DNA from: Lishizhenia tianjinensis
GTDB lineage: Bacteria; Bacteroidota; Bacteroidia; Flavobacteriales_D; Crocinitomicaceae
NCBI GenBank assembly: GCA_943330745.2
Contig: CALQIX020000009.1
Location: 1 to 64,000, forward strand
Length of the DNA: 64,000 bases
Direction of reading: 5' to 3'
Shown here piece by piece: positions 11,162 through 57,510 of this stretch. The first letter of the stretch is position 1, and the number at the start of each line of letters is the position of its first letter. A program made the position numbers and the translations under genes. Below the pieces are notes generated by a model. That model was not told where the DNA came from. It saw only the letters and a list, made by a program, of their open reading frames with translations, and did not search any database.

Positions 11162-11203
11162 AAAACCCACTTTTATTCATTTAAAAGTGGGTTTTCTTTT
11201 TTA
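11162..11203 (+). terminator. Rho-independent terminator
   Basis: Perfect stem AAAACCCACTTTTA / TAAAAGTGGGTTTT followed by a T-rich tract, 25 bases after the stop at 11136. The GTG at 11187 that opens the next long frame lies inside this hairpin, so it is not that gene's start. Confidence 0.9.
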
Positions 11204-11217
11204 TCGCGTATTTTTAC

Positions 11218-11247
11218 TTGAAAGAATTTACACAAGCTGTAACTTTC
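11218..11247 (+). promoter_or_regulatory. Putative promoter TTG-N19-TAACTTTC before the ECF operon
   Basis: TTG at 11218 and TAACTTTC at 11240-11247 (one mismatch to TAnnTTTG) with 19-base spacing, directly after the preceding terminator and 38 bases before the chosen TTG start at 11286. Confidence 0.35.
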
Positions 11248-11285
11248 TTAAAGTTAAAATTGTTCTAACTGTACAAGCGAAAAAA

Positions 11286-11774
11286 TTGGAGGTACTTGAA
11301 TACAATGAAATAGTAAAAACCCACAGCAATTCCTTATTTGGTTTTGCAGTGAAATTCCTTAGAAATAAGGATGATGCTAGAGACATTGTTCAAGATTCAT
11401 TCGAGAAACTATGGTTAAACTGTGAAAAAGTGGAGGTAACGAAAGCAAAATCTTGGTTGTTTACATGCACCTACAATGCAATGATAAACTTCTCATACCG
11501 AAGACAACGTATGATTTCAGTTGCCAATAATGAGCTTCCCGAACAAGGGGTTATTGATCATTCTCCATTCGAATCACAGCAGGTCATTGACCAAGCCGTT
11601 AGTATTCTTCCACCGCTTCAAAAAAGTATTATCCTACTGAGAGATTTAGAAGGATATGCCTACGAAGAAATTGGAGAAATACTCAACCTTTCACCTTCGC
11701 AAGTTAAAGTTTATTTGTTTCGTGCACGAAGCAAAGTAAAAAACCAGTTAAAACAATTGAACATTACACAATGA
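11286..11774 (+). CDS. RNA polymerase sigma factor, ECF (sigma-70 family)
   Basis: About 162 residues if translation begins at the TTG at 11286 (MEVLEYNEIVKTHSNSLFGF, a typical ECF N-terminus). The frame is open back to a GTG at 11187, but that codon is inside the previous gene's terminator hairpin. Region 2 shows SLFGFAVKFLRNKDDARDIV and KAKSWLFTCTYNAMINF; region 4 shows LPPLQKSIILLRDLEGYAYE and EEIGEILNLSPSQVKVYLFR. The stop overlaps the next ATG (ATGA), so it is translationally coupled to the membrane protein that follows. Likely regulated by that protein, and plausibly controlling envelope or T9SS genes, by analogy with the ECF factor SigP in Porphyromonas gingivalis T9SS control. The start codon is the main uncertainty. 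Confidence 0.88.
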   Translation: MEVLEYNEIVKTHSNSLFGFAVKFLRNKDDARDIVQDSFEKLWLNCEKVEVTKAKSWLFTCTYNAMINFSYRRQRMISVANNELPEQGVIDHSPFESQQVIDQAVSILPPLQKSIILLRDLEGYAYEEIGEILNLSPSQVKVYLFRARSKVKNQLKQLNITQ

Positions 11775-13471
11775 GTGGACCATCTTTTTCCAATATTGAC
11801 CGTTGGTTTTTTGAGTATGTTGAGGGTAATCTAAGTCCTGAACAAGAAGCTCAATTGGAAGCTTTTATTCTCAATCATCCCGAACTTGAATTAGACTTGG
11901 ATGCATGGAAATCTGCGACAATTGAACCTGCCTATTACGAATTCCCGAACCAAAATACATTACTTCAACCTGATAAAAAGAAAAGAAGAGTTATTCCATT
12001 TTTTTGGGGAACCGTTGGCACTGTAAGTATAGCCCTAATCTTGTTTTTCTTATGGCCAAATAACCAAACAAATAAGACAAGCCATCAATCAAATTCAATA
12101 AACAACAAACATTCTAAAGTTCACCATTCTTCAGCTCAAAACCAATCTTTCACAGCATCTAAAACGAATGTGAAAAATTCTAATTACTCATTAAACCATT
12201 CCAATTTATCAGGAATCCATTACCAAGCTAATCGCTATTCAACACCTTTGTCAAACACATTGTTAAATTCTTGTGTACAAACAAATATTGAACCCGAAGA
12301 TAAACTGAGCTTGAATATGATTTCTATTAATTCAGTTACAGAGAATGAAAATTCATCCAGTGTTGATCGGTTAGAAAACGATACATTAGTTAGCACCGCC
12401 GATTTAGATAAAACTGAACTATTAATTACTGTACCAAGCAATACAGAAAAGGGAACCAGCTTACCTAAAAACAATAAGATCGTAAAAAACAAAGAAATTA
12501 CCTTATTGAATAAGTTAGAAAAGTCCGTGAATCATCTGAATGAATTTATGGAAAAATCAGTGGGCTTAAAAAATACGAGAGACCATCAAGTTCATGTTCC
12601 GGGAATGTCTCAAATTGATGCAAATTTTTCATCCGCTGGAGACGTATCATCTACCCGATTTCGCTCATTAACACGAGCACAATGGGCAGGCAAACAAAAT
12701 CAGCAACTTTCAACGAATTTCTCTTTAGATTGGTACTCAAAATCTATTCGGTCAGGATTTGCCGTTCAAGGTAAATATATTTATTATTCAAATGGAGTTA
12801 TTCAAGATTGGAATACAGCCCTGGTATATTCTCCAAAAATAGCGCTTTCAAGATCTTTTTTGATTGAGCCTGGAATACGTTTCAAAATGGGTAATAAAAT
12901 GCTAGACGAAAGTAAAGTGTTTGGAATTAATCAGGTAGAAATTGATCGAACAAATTCACTTGACTTTTATCCGGATGGAAGCACACCGATAGGTAAATTA
13001 TTATGGTATAAAGACATTGGCGCATCTCTGCTTCTTCATTCTAAGTGGTTTTATGCAGGATTTCAAATGGATAATTTACTTCATCATCGAGATAATATTT
13101 ATTCAAATAATATTTCAAACCCGCGTAAAACGGGTACACATTTAAATTTGTATGCAGGAACAGATTATGAATCTAAATCTGGAAATTTTGCCTTCGCTCC
13201 CTATTTTATGTATGACCAATTTGAAAACAGAAAAGAAGCATGGGGAGGTTTCAATTTTCAATGTAAAGCACTTGCTCTTGGAGGAGCGATATCTTCTAAA
13301 AGTAATCTAGCTCTTTCTTTAGGACTTCGTTTACAAAAATTCTCAGTGACCTACCAATTTGACAATACCTACTCTCAATTATTAGGATATAAAGCAATTT
13401 CACATCAGGTAGGTCTTACTATAAATTCAAAAGTTAGTCGCACTCCTCGTCGTTACATTCGCTTAAATTAA
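11771..13471 (+). CDS. Anti-sigma-like membrane protein fused to a PorP/SprF-like barrel
   Basis: 566 residues. The first 75 residues are cytoplasmic (DRWFFEYVEGNLSPEQEAQL, typical of Bacteroidota anti-sigma N-termini). A membrane helix follows at about 78-96 (FFWGTVGTVSIALILFFLW), then roughly 200 residues of Ser/Asn-rich periplasmic linker. From about 300 to the end lies a beta-rich domain resembling PorP/SprF: GFAVQGKYIYYSNGVIQDWN, YSPKIALSRSFLIEPGIRFK, DIGASLLLHSKWFYAGFQMD-NLLH and LALSLGLRLQKFSVTYQFD. The next gene is a true PorP/SprF protein, whose motifs (GAEIALGSKS, VFTKRFFGGVAINHLNRP) align in order with these. The design suggests a protein spanning inner membrane, periplasm and outer membrane that holds the sigma factor. 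The barrel assignment is by eye only. Confidence 0.7.
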   Translation: MSGPSFSNIDRWFFEYVEGNLSPEQEAQLEAFILNHPELELDLDAWKSATIEPAYYEFPNQNTLLQPDKKKRRVIPFFWGTVGTVSIALILFFLWPNNQTNKTSHQSNSINNKHSKVHHSSAQNQSFTASKTNVKNSNYSLNHSNLSGIHYQANRYSTPLSNTLLNSCVQTNIEPEDKLSLNMISINSVTENENSSSVDRLENDTLVSTADLDKTELLITVPSNTEKGTSLPKNNKIVKNKEITLLNKLEKSVNHLNEFMEKSVGLKNTRDHQVHVPGMSQIDANFSSAGDVSSTRFRSLTRAQWAGKQNQQLSTNFSLDWYSKSIRSGFAVQGKYIYYSNGVIQDWNTALVYSPKIALSRSFLIEPGIRFKMGNKMLDESKVFGINQVEIDRTNSLDFYPDGSTPIGKLLWYKDIGASLLLHSKWFYAGFQMDNLLHHRDNIYSNNISNPRKTGTHLNLYAGTDYESKSGNFAFAPYFMYDQFENRKEAWGGFNFQCKALALGGAISSKSNLALSLGLRLQKFSVTYQFDNTYSQLLGYKAISHQVGLTINSKVSRTPRRYIRLN

Positions 13472-13476
13472 TCGTT

Positions 13477-14436
13477 ATGAAAAAGATTTTATTCACCACA
13501 ATTTTCAGTTTATCAATTATTAAATTGTTTGCTCAGGACCCTACGTTTACTCAATTCTATTCGAATCCGGTTTACTTAAATCCAGCACTAGCCGGATCTC
13601 ATGGATGCCCGCGATTGGCTATGAATTACAGAAATGAATGGCCACAGTTAACAGGAAATTATGTAACCTATGCAGCCGCTTATGATACCTATGCTAAAAA
13701 TGTGAGTGGTGGAATTGGGATTTTGGCTATGCATGATCAACAAGGGCAGGGCACTATTCAAACTTCGATGATTGGGTTGATATATTCGTATCACGTTAAA
13801 TTGAGCCGTAAAGCTTCCATGATGTTTGGCGCAAAAGCTTCTTGGTACCAGAAATTTTTAGATTGGGATAAGCTGACTTTTGGCGATATGATTGACCCGC
13901 GTCGTGGTTTCATATACCAAACAGGAGATGTACCGAGAGGCGGAAATCGTGGGTTTTTCGACGTTTCTGCTGGAGCGGTTGTTTTCACCAAACGATTTTT
14001 TGGTGGCGTGGCCATTAATCACTTGAACCGACCTGACGAATCTATGATTTTAGGTCAGTCTCGTTTACCGATGCGCTTTACTGGTCATGTGGGTGCTGAA
14101 ATTGCTTTGGGTTCTAAATCCAAGTATTCCAATGTGACTTCAATCATGCCAAACATTATCTACCAATATCAAAATGGTTTTCAAGAATTGAATATTGGCA
14201 CGTATATAAAATACGGTAATTTCAACGTTGGAGCATGGTATCGTAATCGTGATGCATTTATTTTAACATTCGGAATAAATACAGGAAAATTCAAATTGGG
14301 TTATAGTTATGATGTAACTGTATCTAAATTAGGAAATGGAATATCTGGCGGTTCACACGAGGTGTCAATGGGATACAATTTGAAATGCCGAAGAAAACCA
14401 AGAGCTTTCAGAACGATTTCTTGTCCATCATTTTAA
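13477..14436 (+). CDS. PorP/SprF family T9SS outer-membrane protein (copy A)
   Basis: 319 residues with a signal peptide (MKKILFTTIFSLSIIKLFAQ) and the family start QDPTFTQFYSNPVYLNPALA followed by GSHGCPRLAMNYRNEWP. PorP/SprF proteins are outer-membrane components that link the T9SS to specific cargo or to the trans-envelope PorKLMN machinery. It starts 5 bases after the anti-sigma-PorP fusion, so it belongs to the ECF operon. Its mature part differs from the protein encoded at 56533-57510 at only four residues that I can see (I/V or P/A), while the signal peptides are unrelated. At the DNA level the two copies alternate between identical 60-base blocks and blocks with many silent changes, suggesting gene conversion under strong selection. 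Confidence 0.92.
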   Translation: MKKILFTTIFSLSIIKLFAQDPTFTQFYSNPVYLNPALAGSHGCPRLAMNYRNEWPQLTGNYVTYAAAYDTYAKNVSGGIGILAMHDQQGQGTIQTSMIGLIYSYHVKLSRKASMMFGAKASWYQKFLDWDKLTFGDMIDPRRGFIYQTGDVPRGGNRGFFDVSAGAVVFTKRFFGGVAINHLNRPDESMILGQSRLPMRFTGHVGAEIALGSKSKYSNVTSIMPNIIYQYQNGFQELNIGTYIKYGNFNVGAWYRNRDAFILTFGINTGKFKLGYSYDVTVSKLGNGISGGSHEVSMGYNLKCRRKPRAFRTISCPSF

Positions 14437-14476
14437 CAAATAAAACAGCATTTTTCTTGCTATCTTTACGCAGGAA

Positions 14477-14914
14477 ATGAGGAATCTACTTTCATATATT
14501 TTTTTATTCTTTCTACTTGAAGCATGCACGACAGGTGTGAGTATGGTTGAAAATGATTTTTCTTCTATGCTTCACGATGGCAATAGTAAAGTCTGGATGA
14601 TTCGTGACATAGTAAGTAACGGAAACAACTTCGCTAAAAAAGGAGATATTAAAGATCTGCTTATTTTTTATGATAACGGCTACTGCATTCTTCAATCTAC
14701 TTTTGAAATCGGCACACAAACAGGACAAAAAGGTCAATTTAAGGCTGATTTTGCTGCAAAAAAATTGATTGTTGAATTCCCTAAAGAGACCTGGGATTTC
14801 AGCGTAGATATTAAATCTGAAAATGAAATTTTACTAAAACCCGCAACGAATTCGAAAACAACTTTTTCCATGGTAATAATTCCGCTACCTGAGCTTGTTA
14901 AAAATTCCCGATGA
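14477..14914 (+). CDS. Hypothetical lipoprotein
   Basis: 145 residues. The N-terminus MRNLLSYIFLFFLLEACTTG ends in a lipobox (LEAC, Cys17), so it should be a lipid-anchored envelope protein. The rest (GNSKVWMIRDIVSNG, FYDNGYCILQSTFEIGTQTG, KTTFSMVIIPLPE) has the alternating pattern of a small beta-barrel or lipocalin-like fold, as in several Bacteroidota DUF-type lipoproteins. The stop overlaps the start of the CoaE fusion by 4 bases, so the two are translationally coupled. Function unknown. Confidence 0.8.
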   Translation: MRNLLSYIFLFFLLEACTTGVSMVENDFSSMLHDGNSKVWMIRDIVSNGNNFAKKGDIKDLLIFYDNGYCILQSTFEIGTQTGQKGQFKADFAAKKLIVEFPKETWDFSVDIKSENEILLKPATNSKTTFSMVIIPLPELVKNSR

Positions 14915-15849
14915 AAAAGCTAAAAGTCGGATTAACCGGTGGAATTGGTTCTGGAAAATCATTGGTTTGCAGTGTGCTAGAAAAAATGGGGTTTACCGTA
15001 TTTTATTCCGACAAAACGGCCAAGAAACTCATTCATGAATCTGCAGAATTAAAAAGCAATATAATTGAACTTATTGGTCCTCTTGCATATGATGAATTTG
15101 GCAATTACAACACATCTTATGTTAGCCAAATTGTTTTTGAAAACTCCCACAAATTGGCAGCACTTAATGAGTTAATCCATCCATTTGTCCGCAGTGAATT
15201 TGACCTTTTTGTTAAAATTACAGATGCTCGCATAGTATTTAATGAGGCGGCTATTTTATATGAAACTGGGGCATACAAGTCTTTTGATCAAATAGTGTTG
15301 GTCACGGCTCCGCTTGAAACTCGCATAAAACGATGCATGTTGCGGGATAATCTCACAAAAGAAGCTATTGAGCGAAAAATGCAAAATCAATGGTCTGACG
15401 AAAAAAAACGCGACTTTTTACCATACGAAATCATAAATGATGGCGTAAATCCGCTTTTAACACAAGTGGAAGATTTTGTTTCATTCATTTTACCGAATAA
15501 AAGGCAATTAAACACAAGAGAAGATATAGAATTATTGGTTCAAACGTTCTATTCAAAAGTAATGAAGGACGTTATTTTAGTGCCCTTTTTTATGCACTTA
15601 GACTTTAGTGTTCATTTACCCAAAATGGTTGATTTTTGGTGTTTCGTTTTAATTGGCACAACAGGGTACACAACCAATGTAATTGAAAAACACTTACATA
15701 TGCCACTCCAAAATGACCATTTTGATCATTGGATCAATCTGTTTAACAAGACGTTGGATGAATTATTTGTTGGTGAAAATGTAGAGACAGCAAAACAACG
15801 TGCTTTAGTTATTGCTTGGACAACAAAAAGTAAATTAAATTTAAACTAA
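14911..15849 (+). CDS. coaE: Dephospho-CoA kinase fused to group III truncated haemoglobin
   Basis: 312 residues against about 200 for ordinary CoaE. Residues 1-195 are a complete dephospho-CoA kinase, the last step of CoA synthesis: P-loop GLTGGIGSGKS at 7-17, YSDKTAKKLIH near 32, LNELIHPFVRSEF and the lid-region VLVTAPLETRIKRCMLRDN. From about 198 the frame continues without a break into a globin of the truncated group III type: NTREDIELLVQTFYSKVMKD, LPKMVDFWCFVLIGTTGYTT, then KHLHMPLQNDHFDHWINLF with His261 in the H-x-x-[LM]-P proximal-haem position, and ETAKQRALVIAWTTKSK. No ATG lies at the junction, and the stop is a clean TAA after the globin. I know of no standard CoaE with this extension. 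A redox or O2/NO-responsive kinase, or simply a globin partner, are both possible. Confidence 0.85.
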   Translation: MKKLKVGLTGGIGSGKSLVCSVLEKMGFTVFYSDKTAKKLIHESAELKSNIIELIGPLAYDEFGNYNTSYVSQIVFENSHKLAALNELIHPFVRSEFDLFVKITDARIVFNEAAILYETGAYKSFDQIVLVTAPLETRIKRCMLRDNLTKEAIERKMQNQWSDEKKRDFLPYEIINDGVNPLLTQVEDFVSFILPNKRQLNTREDIELLVQTFYSKVMKDVILVPFFMHLDFSVHLPKMVDFWCFVLIGTTGYTTNVIEKHLHMPLQNDHFDHWINLFNKTLDELFVGENVETAKQRALVIAWTTKSKLNLN

Positions 15850-17878: not shown

Positions 17879-17977
17879 ATTATTTAATTTTTCGAAACTT
17901 CATTCCAAATTATAACAATTAACAAATGGCGAAGGATAACTTATAATTTGCTATTAAAAAAAGGGAATGGGTCTTTG

Positions 17978-17985
17978 TAATTTTG
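17978..17985 (+). promoter_or_regulatory. Putative -7 box (TAATTTTG) of the LpxD-like gene
   Basis: Exact TAnnTTTG 17 bases before the ATG at 18003. It lies within the open frame starting at ATG 17967, which argues that 18003 is the real start. Confidence 0.45.
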
Positions 17986-18002
17986 AGGTAAGATATAAAA
18001 AT

Positions 18003-18932
18003 ATGAAACTTCAGCGCAAATTCACTCTTGAAGAAATCTGCAAAATTATAGATTGTAATTACGTAGGAGAACCAAATCATATCATAACCGGGCTGAACGA
18101 AATACATATGGTAGAATCAGGAGACATCGTATTTGTTGATCATCCAAAATACTATGAAAAAGCACTAAAATCAGCTGCAACCACAATAATTATTGATAAG
18201 GAGGTTGACTGCCCAACAGGAAAAGCACTTATTTTATCTAAATCACCGTTTGATGACTTCAACCGATTAACTAGGCACTTTATGCCCGAAACAAATCCAC
18301 ATCATCCGACAAATCAATTCATTCATCCATCGTCCATTATTTTCCCAACGGTTTTCATTGGATCAAATGTCAAAATTGGTGTGAATTGCAAAATTATGTC
18401 TGGGGCTTGTATTCTAGACAATTGTACATTGGAAAACAATGTGATTATTGGACCCAATACCGTAATTGGTCACTCTGCCTTTTATTATAAAAAGAAAAAT
18501 GAAGGATACGACCGAATGCATACCTGTGGTGGAGTTTACATCGAATCAAACGTTGAAATTGGGGCACTTTGTACAATAGATGCAGGAGTTTCTGGATTGA
18601 CACGAATCGGCTACGGAACTAAAATAGATAATCAGGTACACATAGGTCATGACACCCAAATTGGAGCTCATTGCTTAATGGCTTCTGGAGTTGGAATCGC
18701 AGGATGTGTTACAATCAAAAATCACGTTACTTTATGGGGACAAGTAGGTTGCGCAAGTAATGTTGTAATTGAGGATAACGTTGTTGTTTACGCCCAATCA
18801 GGGATTGGGAAAGATTTATCGGCAGGAAAAACTTATTTTGGAAGTCCGTGTGCTGAAGCAAAAGAGAAATTTAGAGAGCTGGTTGCGTTAAAAAAATTAC
18901 CTAACATTATAGACAATCTATCCAATGGTTGA
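18003..18932 (+). CDS. LpxD-like UDP-3-O-acylglucosamine N-acyltransferase
   Basis: 309 residues from ATG 18003; the upstream ATG 17967 precedes the -7 box. Residues 1-95 match the LpxD N-terminal uridine-binding domain (ITGLNEIHMVESGDIVFVDH, PKYYEKALKSAATTIII). From about 95 to 275 a left-handed beta-helix of hexapeptide repeats follows (IGSNVKIGVNCKIM, IGPNTVIGHSAFYY, VEIGALCTIDAGVSG, IGYGTKIDNQVHIGHD), including the HIGHD histidine in the acyltransferase position. LpxD adds the N-linked acyl chain in lipid A synthesis. Bacteroidota often carry a second LpxD-like paralogue beside the main lpx cluster, and no other lpx gene is near, so this may be that paralogue. Its end overlaps the next gene by 8 bases. 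Confidence 0.88.
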   Translation: MKLQRKFTLEEICKIIDCNYVGEPNHIITGLNEIHMVESGDIVFVDHPKYYEKALKSAATTIIIDKEVDCPTGKALILSKSPFDDFNRLTRHFMPETNPHHPTNQFIHPSSIIFPTVFIGSNVKIGVNCKIMSGACILDNCTLENNVIIGPNTVIGHSAFYYKKKNEGYDRMHTCGGVYIESNVEIGALCTIDAGVSGLTRIGYGTKIDNQVHIGHDTQIGAHCLMASGVGIAGCVTIKNHVTLWGQVGCASNVVIEDNVVVYAQSGIGKDLSAGKTYFGSPCAEAKEKFRELVALKKLPNIIDNLSNG

Positions 18933-56532: not shown

Positions 56533-57510
56533 CTAAAAAGAAGGACAAGAAATCGTTCTGAACGCTCTTGGTTTTCTTCTACATTTTAAATTATATCCCA
56601 TTGATACCTCATGCGAACCTCCGGATATTCCATTTCCTAATTTAGAAACTGTTACATCATAGCTGTATCCCAGTTTAAATTTACCTGTATTCACTCCAAA
56701 TGTTAAAATAAATGCATCCCGATTGCGATACCATGCACCAACATTGAAATTACCGTATTTAATGTAGGTACCAATATTCAATTCTTGAAAACCATTTTGA
56801 TATTGGTAAATAATATTTGGCATGATTGAAGTCACATTGGAATACTTGGATTTAGAACCCAGAGCAATTTCAGCACCCACATGACCTGTAAAGCGCATCG
56901 GTAATCGAGACTGACCTAAAATCATGGATTCATCCGGTCTATTTAGATGATTCACAGCAACTCCACCAAAAAATCTCTTCGTAAAAACAACCGCTCCAGC
57001 CGACACATCAAAAAACCCACGATTACCACCCCTTGCAACATCACCTGTTTGGTATATGAAACCACGACGAGGGTCAATCATATCTCCAAAAGTTAGCTTA
57101 TCCCAATCTAAAAATTTCTGGTACCAAGAAGCTTTTGCGCCAAACATCATGGAAGCTTTACGGCTCAATTTAACGTGATACGAATAAATCAACCCAATCA
57201 TCGAAGTTTGAATAGTGCCCTGCCCTTGTTGGTCATGCATAGCCAAAACCCCAATTCCACCACTTACGTTTTTAGCGTAAGTATCGTATGCTGCTGCATA
57301 GGTCACATAATTCCCCGTTAGCTGTGGCCATTCATTTCTATAATTCATTGCTAATCGTGGGCACCCATGAGATCCGGCTAGTGCTGGATTTAAGTAAACC
57401 GGATTTGAATAGAATTGAGTAAACGTAGGATCCTGAGCAAGTAATTTGCTACTTACGGAACACAACAAAACTGTTGTAAAAAACAGTATATCAGTAACTT
57501 TTATTTTCAC
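56533..57510 (-). CDS. PorP/SprF family T9SS outer-membrane protein (copy B)
   Basis: 325 residues starting at GTG 57510. The signal peptide (MKIKVTDILFFTTVLLCSVS) is unrelated to that of copy A at 13477, but from QDPTFTQFYSNPVY onward the two proteins differ at only four residues that I can see. At the DNA level some 60-base blocks are identical and others carry several silent differences. It lies between gldJ and the divergent porU gene in the T9SS core locus, whereas copy A sits in an ECF sigma operon. Has its own consensus promoter. Confidence 0.93.
   Translation of the reverse strand: MKIKVTDILFFTTVLLCSVSSKLLAQDPTFTQFYSNPVYLNPALAGSHGCPRLAMNYRNEWPQLTGNYVTYAAAYDTYAKNVSGGIGVLAMHDQQGQGTIQTSMIGLIYSYHVKLSRKASMMFGAKASWYQKFLDWDKLTFGDMIDPRRGFIYQTGDVARGGNRGFFDVSAGAVVFTKRFFGGVAVNHLNRPDESMILGQSRLPMRFTGHVGAEIALGSKSKYSNVTSIMPNIIYQYQNGFQELNIGTYIKYGNFNVGAWYRNRDAFILTFGVNTGKFKLGYSYDVTVSKLGNGISGGSHEVSMGYNLKCRRKPRAFRTISCPSF

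Follow-up and report, generated by a model that had tools for sequence, protein, structure and literature searches.

A bacterial genome assigned to Lishizhenia tianjinensis encodes a protein in which a complete dephospho-CoA kinase (CoaE) is followed, in a single open frame, by a complete group III truncated haemoglobin (trHb). The gene lies in a stretch of 64,000 nucleotides that was analysed as a whole and is called the window below (assembly GCA_943330745.2, contig CALQIX020000009.1, positions 1 to 64,000 of the forward strand). The fusion is real; a second genome with the same arrangement had been named in the original prediction as support for it, and three further genomes carry the CoaE-globin fusion. 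The reading that we favour, with moderate confidence, is of one polypeptide with two complete, functional and largely independent tethered modules, the kinase activity and the haem binding both being predicted from sequence. The gene and its parts are as follows.

14911..15849, forward strand: coaE-trHb fusion gene, 312 aa, ATG to TAA, with the junction also found in G230 (L021), G229 (L022) and G142 (L002)
14911..15489, forward strand: dephospho-CoA kinase domain (CoaE), residues 1-193
15490..15498, forward strand: junction residues 194-196, a linker of about three residues (from alignment with separate CoaE and trHb proteins)
15499..15846, forward strand: group III truncated haemoglobin domain, residues 197-312 (PF01152, 2ig3 and alignments)

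The two-domain reading, first made from the letters and the translated frames, is borne out by profile searches and structure prediction. Residues 6-178 match the CoaE profile PF01121 (E 9.5e-36, 123.6 bits against a cut-off of 27), and TIGR00152 scores 104 bits against a curated cut-off of 65.55; for the Bac_globin profile (PF01152) the match covers residues 203-294 and scores 28.3 bits (cut-off 21; E 2.1e-6), or 30.4 bits in a profile search of the genome itself. The best globin match of the globin part among solved structures, by sequence, is the group III protein 2ig3 (E 1.3e-10), which is also the first globin in a fold comparison of the predicted structure. Both a CoaE fold and a globin fold are recovered in that prediction; the junction block (residues 191-200) has a mean pLDDT of 79, and with a pTM of 0.65 the placement of the two domains relative to each other is not firm. 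The structure alignment took in 84 of 90 references together with the four fusions.

The junction is nearly linker-less in all four fusions. The globin, which had been expected to begin at about residue 198, is complete from residue 197 in the alignment, where Lys197 lines up with the start Met of stand-alone trHbs. The frame runs open across the joint without an ATG, as had been claimed, and ATG, GTG and TTG are all absent between residues 187 and 208 of the window gene. A TTG is found at residue 209 in all four fusions, and the same Leu is encoded by TTG in 14 of 45 unfused globins; this codon was rejected as an internal start, since the first 12 globin residues would be lost. The G142 fusion alone has a further TTG in frame, at its residue 199, close to where the globin begins. 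Judged from the codons available, independent initiation of the globin is unlikely.

CoaE is the last enzyme in CoA synthesis, which cannot proceed without it, and makes CoA from dephospho-CoA and ATP. The CoaE half of the fusion contains a P-loop and two further residues of interest; by our own alignment Lys16, Asp34 and Arg141 presumably pair with Lys14, Asp32 and Arg140 of Mycobacterium tuberculosis CoaE.

14938..14961, forward strand: P-loop GGIGSGKS, residues 10-17, including Lys16
15010..15012, forward strand: Asp34, equivalent by alignment to the catalytic Asp32 of M. tuberculosis CoaE
15331..15333, forward strand: Arg141, the likely equivalent by alignment of the lid Arg140 of M. tuberculosis CoaE

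The three M. tuberculosis residues are described as required for ATP binding and catalysis (PMC3019153). Comparison was made with the CoaE of 38 unfused relatives from the genus and the family, which are 190-203 aa long except for two of 177 and 179 aa. Lys16 is found in all 36 that have the column, Asp34 and Arg141 each in 38 of 38, and all three in every one of the four fusions. Where at least 97% of this unfused set agree on a residue, the fusions depart from it at three positions only: G142 has Met for Ile12 and Ser for Pro91, and G230 has Leu for Ile115. A search of the window genome (G000; 3.06 Mb, 99.94% complete) with the whole protein returned a single match (E ≤0.001), the fusion gene itself. 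Being the only CoaE copy found in the genome, the fusion should be active as a CoaE and supply that function, with phosphorylation of dephospho-CoA as its predicted reaction.

The globin half keeps five haem-pocket positions that do not vary among the 52 aligned globins; the names B10, F8 and G8 are those that we assume from alignment to 2ig3 and from general knowledge of the family.

15550..15552, forward strand: Tyr214, position B10
15613..15615, forward strand: His235, position E7, a group P hallmark
15637..15639, forward strand: Trp243, position E15, a group P hallmark
15691..15693, forward strand: His261, proximal haem ligand position F8, paired in the alignment with the HLDLP His of 2ig3
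15730..15732, forward strand: Trp274, position G8

The alignment combines the four fused globins with 48 of 53 separate ones (G166, G184a, G157, G172 and G184b were left out) and has 23 invariant columns, a description that may not hold for G184b, the most divergent of the separate globins (35%). His261 had been singled out beforehand as the proximal haem position, and its invariance and its pairing with the 2ig3 His agree with that assignment. Asp220 (Asp B16) falls in a column conserved in at least 90% of the globins. The proximal motif of G142 is H-L-H-L-S, in which the His is kept and Ser replaces the Pro of H-x-x-[LM]-P. His E7 and Trp E15 are given as hallmarks of group P (III), and Asp B16 as a group P position, in the available text of PMC4720485, where 78% of group P is predicted to be catalase-peroxidase-like. 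The function of the Campylobacter jejuni group III globin is called uncertain, its role towards NO included (PMC3820574), and a group II globin is reported to act on protein hydroperoxides (PMC9536834). Ferrochelatase genes were found in G000 and G142, so haem can be made in both; none was found in G188, G229 and G230, which are 94%, 87% and 85% complete. An intact haem pocket under purifying selection (see below) argues that the globin works too; the domain is predicted to bind haem and to support O2, peroxide or NO chemistry, as stand-alone group III globins would.

Within the genus (86 genomes) four carry the fusion; besides the window genome these are G230, G229 and G142, with copies 79%, 78% and 55-56% identical to that of the window. 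The copies of G230 and G229 are also the full-length ones (L021 and L022, respectively) returned by a scan of named genome contigs, from MAGs labelled L. tianjinensis, a species placed in Crocinitomicaceae, Flavobacteriales. A scan of 240 genomes of the family gave the same four fusions and no others (E ≤1e-60). Overlapping samples of 399 order, 395 class and 395 phylum genomes yielded no further fusion, at thresholds (1e-48 to 1e-62) that a very distant one could escape.

The only PF01152 match in the window genome (E ≤0.1) is again the fusion gene. A separate globin match (E ≤1e-10) is present in 60 of the 86 genus members (one partial match in G228), and in none of the four fusion genomes. 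Five genomes that are 94-100% complete (G188, G178, G132, G053 and G180) have a CoaE match and no detectable truncated globin of group III type; with well-assembled members of this kind, the genus seems able to do without the globin. A missing match in a draft genome is not proof of absence: G194 (98% complete) has no CoaE match and G200 (97% complete) no match of any kind, probably through a break in the contig or divergence of the CoaE. At least three genomes have two group III-type globin genes each, namely G190 (L061 and L062), G184 (L141 and L142) and G095 (L118 and L119); in G190 both adjoin a copy of an ftsX-uppP-truB-type block, reflecting either a duplication or a mixed bin.

In a tree of 57 rows, which retained G166 (over-extracted, 438 aa) and G184a (109 aa), poorly filled columns having been trimmed, the four fused globins group as a single clade (support 100/99, 100% of 200 bootstrap trees). 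The CoaE tree (42 rows) has the fusions on one side of a weakly supported branch (79/79, 80% of bootstrap trees), and the fusion CoaE domains together with the family member fG005 group beside G188 and G202 (94/89). Since the fused globins are one clade, the two genes were probably joined only once, and inheritance from that single event is the best fit. Both parts are under purifying selection: in comparisons of the three closest fused copies, dN/dS lies at 0.13-0.14 in CoaE and at 0.10-0.15 in the globin. Comparisons that involve G142 come close to synonymous saturation and are less informative.

The fusion gene stands at the end of a run of genes on the same strand, and the last of the genes before it overlaps the start of the fusion by 4 bases.

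11187..11774, forward strand: ECF-type sigma factor gene, head of the run (PF08281, PF04542, TIGR02937)
11771..13471, forward strand: 566-aa gene without a family match, whose G188 counterpart matches PorP_SprF at residues 288-547
13477..14436, forward strand: PorP/SprF-family gene (TIGR03519 over cut-off, PF11751)
14477..14914, forward strand: 145-aa lipoprotein-like gene (from its N-terminus), without a Pfam (E ≤1) or NCBIfam match

A core metabolic gene is thereby found behind an apparent envelope or type IX secretion gene set (11187-14914). The run is kept in G188, where a sigma factor gene, a 563-aa gene, a PorP/SprF homologue and a 143-aa lipoprotein-like gene precede a plain coaE of 194 aa. 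Homologues of the lipoprotein-like gene lie just upstream of coaE in G229, G230, G142, G188 and G202; in the last of these the coaE is plain (193 aa) and lies at a contig end. G188, at 94% completeness, has no detectable globin of group III type. Read from gene content, the plain coaE of G188 and G202 in the gene context of the fusion is the expected unfused state. The window holds a second PorP/SprF-type gene on the reverse strand (56533-57510), which is 95.6% identical over 318 residues to that at 13477-14436 (forward strand); the two paralogues are perhaps kept alike by gene conversion.

Separate coaE and trHb genes are not neighbours in any of 20 coaE loci and 19 trHb loci of unfused relatives (ORFs ≥80 aa; contig ends cut some of the loci short), and an origin of the fusion from operon neighbours was rejected because no such pair occurs in these 39 unfused loci. 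Of the 19 trHb loci (L053-L071; families named on L070 only), 13 have the globin next to an ftsX-type gene, and this placement of the stand-alone group III globin near ftsX-DUF3098-uppP-truB-type genes constitutes a stable neighbourhood. No globin ORF is present at the ftsX locus of any of the four fusion genomes. Next to coaE, all but one of the 20 loci from unfused relatives have a methyltransferase gene, which lacks a neighbouring coaE in the three fusion genomes compared (G000, G142 and G230). We propose that a globin gene came to sit directly behind coaE in the run of sigma factor, PorP/SprF, lipoprotein-like and coaE genes; loss of the coaE stop and of the globin start would have put the whole globin about three residues after the last CoaE helix, with Lys taking the place of the globin Met at the joining.

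The two halves of the gene have diverged unequally. Between the window and G230, amino-acid identity is 70.5% in CoaE (residues 1-193) and 92.4% in the globin, and the difference is concentrated in one segment.

14919..15374, forward strand: divergent patch within the CoaE half, interpreted as recombinant

Base mismatch to G230 rises from 5.6% on the upstream side to 32% over 14911-15400 and falls back to 6.1% directly downstream. The patch scores 37.5, and the highest score in 500 mismatch shuffles, which ignore rate variation, is 7.1. In the same comparison dS is 1.6 for CoaE and 0.3 for the globin; since synonymous sites have diverged too, fast protein evolution was rejected as the cause and homologous recombination in the CoaE half is suggested instead. 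A second patch, at about 18200-18480 in an LpxD-like gene (17967-18932), has 35% mismatch to G230, with about 6-8% in neighbouring stretches. Both are likely marks of homologous recombination from a more distant donor.

In the arrangement of two tethered, largely independent modules, the tether would mainly give shared expression and 1:1 amounts of the two activities, without allostery. The original prediction had gone further, proposing that the haem is functionally coupled to CoaE: O2, NO or peroxide bound at the globin haem would alter the activity or stability of the kinase, and the ligand or redox state of the globin would set the rate of the final step of CoA synthesis in a haem-regulated dephospho-CoA kinase. 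The nearly linker-less junction shared by all four fusions, the five conserved haem-pocket positions and the retention of the fusion from G000 to G142 at 55-56% identity are in keeping with such coupling, as are the known fusions of truncated and other globins with sensor outputs, nitrate reductase or protein kinase (PMC7082302, PMC3820574); contact between the domains might matter, given a joint kept through so much divergence. This part of the prediction did not gain from the comparison, however. In unfused relatives the two genes are nowhere adjacent at the loci compared (20 for coaE, 19 for the globin), several well-assembled relatives have CoaE and no detectable truncated globin of group III type, and the pTM leaves the domain placement loose. 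Recombination also exchanged most of the CoaE half in one lineage while the globin half stayed, and that the fusion outlived the exchange argues mildly against a finely tuned domain contact. We consider a haem-gated CoaE unlikely, though it is the strongest of the alternatives.

Less probable still is a role of the globin as a C-terminal folding or solubility partner of CoaE, comparable to UPF0157 in M. tuberculosis CoaE. The N-domain of that enzyme is reported to be 90-98% insoluble without its C-terminal domain, for which a C-terminal GST can substitute (PMC2765170), and the globin is fused at the same end as UPF0157. Unfused relatives, including G188 and G202 with the same gene context, nevertheless manage with plain CoaE, and a folding role would not need the five haem-pocket residues that are kept. 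The globin might also be a neutral leftover, a tolerated passenger heading for decay, as its apparent absence from several well-assembled genus members could suggest; the low dN/dS of the globin among the three closest fused copies and the conservation of all 23 invariant positions in all four fusions make this very improbable. An assembly or base-calling artefact that joined two genes, for which nothing speaks except that the G142 copy is on a contig of only 3012 bases, is extremely improbable and, with a frameshift, is rejected because three further genomes have the same open junction, in copies 55-79% identical to that of the window, and the usual ftsX locus lacks a globin ORF in all four.

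No CoaE-globin protein is known to us, and the named examples of multidomain truncated haemoglobins are not known to be of group III. No CoaE-globin protein was found in the open-licence literature, where no paper contains both 'dephospho-CoA kinase' and 'truncated hemoglobin', or in titles and abstract beginnings among the matches listed for wider searches of it; a review of multidomain trHbs (Hade 2017) might mention one. The fusion resembles plain CoaE (TIGR00152; 4i1v, 1jjv) in its whole domain and catalytic residues, and differs by the C-terminal globin extension. Its globin resembles the stand-alone group III (P) trHb of C. jejuni, Ctb (2ig3), but sits behind CoaE and, as aligned, lacks about six residues directly ahead of helix E. 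The animal CoaD-CoaE protein (CoA synthase, 2f6r) also has a fused CoaE, but its partner is the preceding enzyme of the pathway, located on the N-terminal side. Globin-coupled sensors likewise join a globin to another functional domain, with an N-terminal sensor globin and then an output domain; here the order is reversed, CoaE (6-178) coming first and the PF01152 globin (203-294) second. The sensors combine a 3/3 globin with a regulatory output domain (PMC7082302), whereas the present globin is of the 2/2 truncated type and follows an enzyme.

The mycobacterial CoaE-UPF0157 protein (PMC2765170; 6n39) likewise has a second domain at the same end of CoaE, but the partner there is UPF0157, reported to act in folding, and here it is a globin; among Pfam families up to E 1 the fusion has no UPF0157/GrpB match and has PF01152 instead. 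Truncated globins are joined in frame, as here, in nitrate reductase-trHb, trHb-antibiotic monooxygenase and protein kinase fusions, and CoaE is not named as a trHb partner in the accessible parts of the two sources (PMC7082302, PMC3820574). Fusions of trHb and fusions of CoaE (with UPF0157, or as CoaD-CoaE) are already known kinds; the pairing of CoaE with a globin appears to be undescribed, none having been found.

Group III truncated globins are without a settled role, and the natural covalent link of one such globin to an easily assayed enzyme of core metabolism allows a direct test. If the two modules are uncoupled, the protein would be a clean case of fusion between two unrelated genes at a locus of core metabolism whose unfused form survives in relatives. 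If they are coupled, CoA supply would be under gas or redox control; a haem-regulated CoaE would, to our knowledge, be the first globin-controlled enzyme of the CoA pathway, and would offer a clue to the role of group III globins in Bacteroidota.
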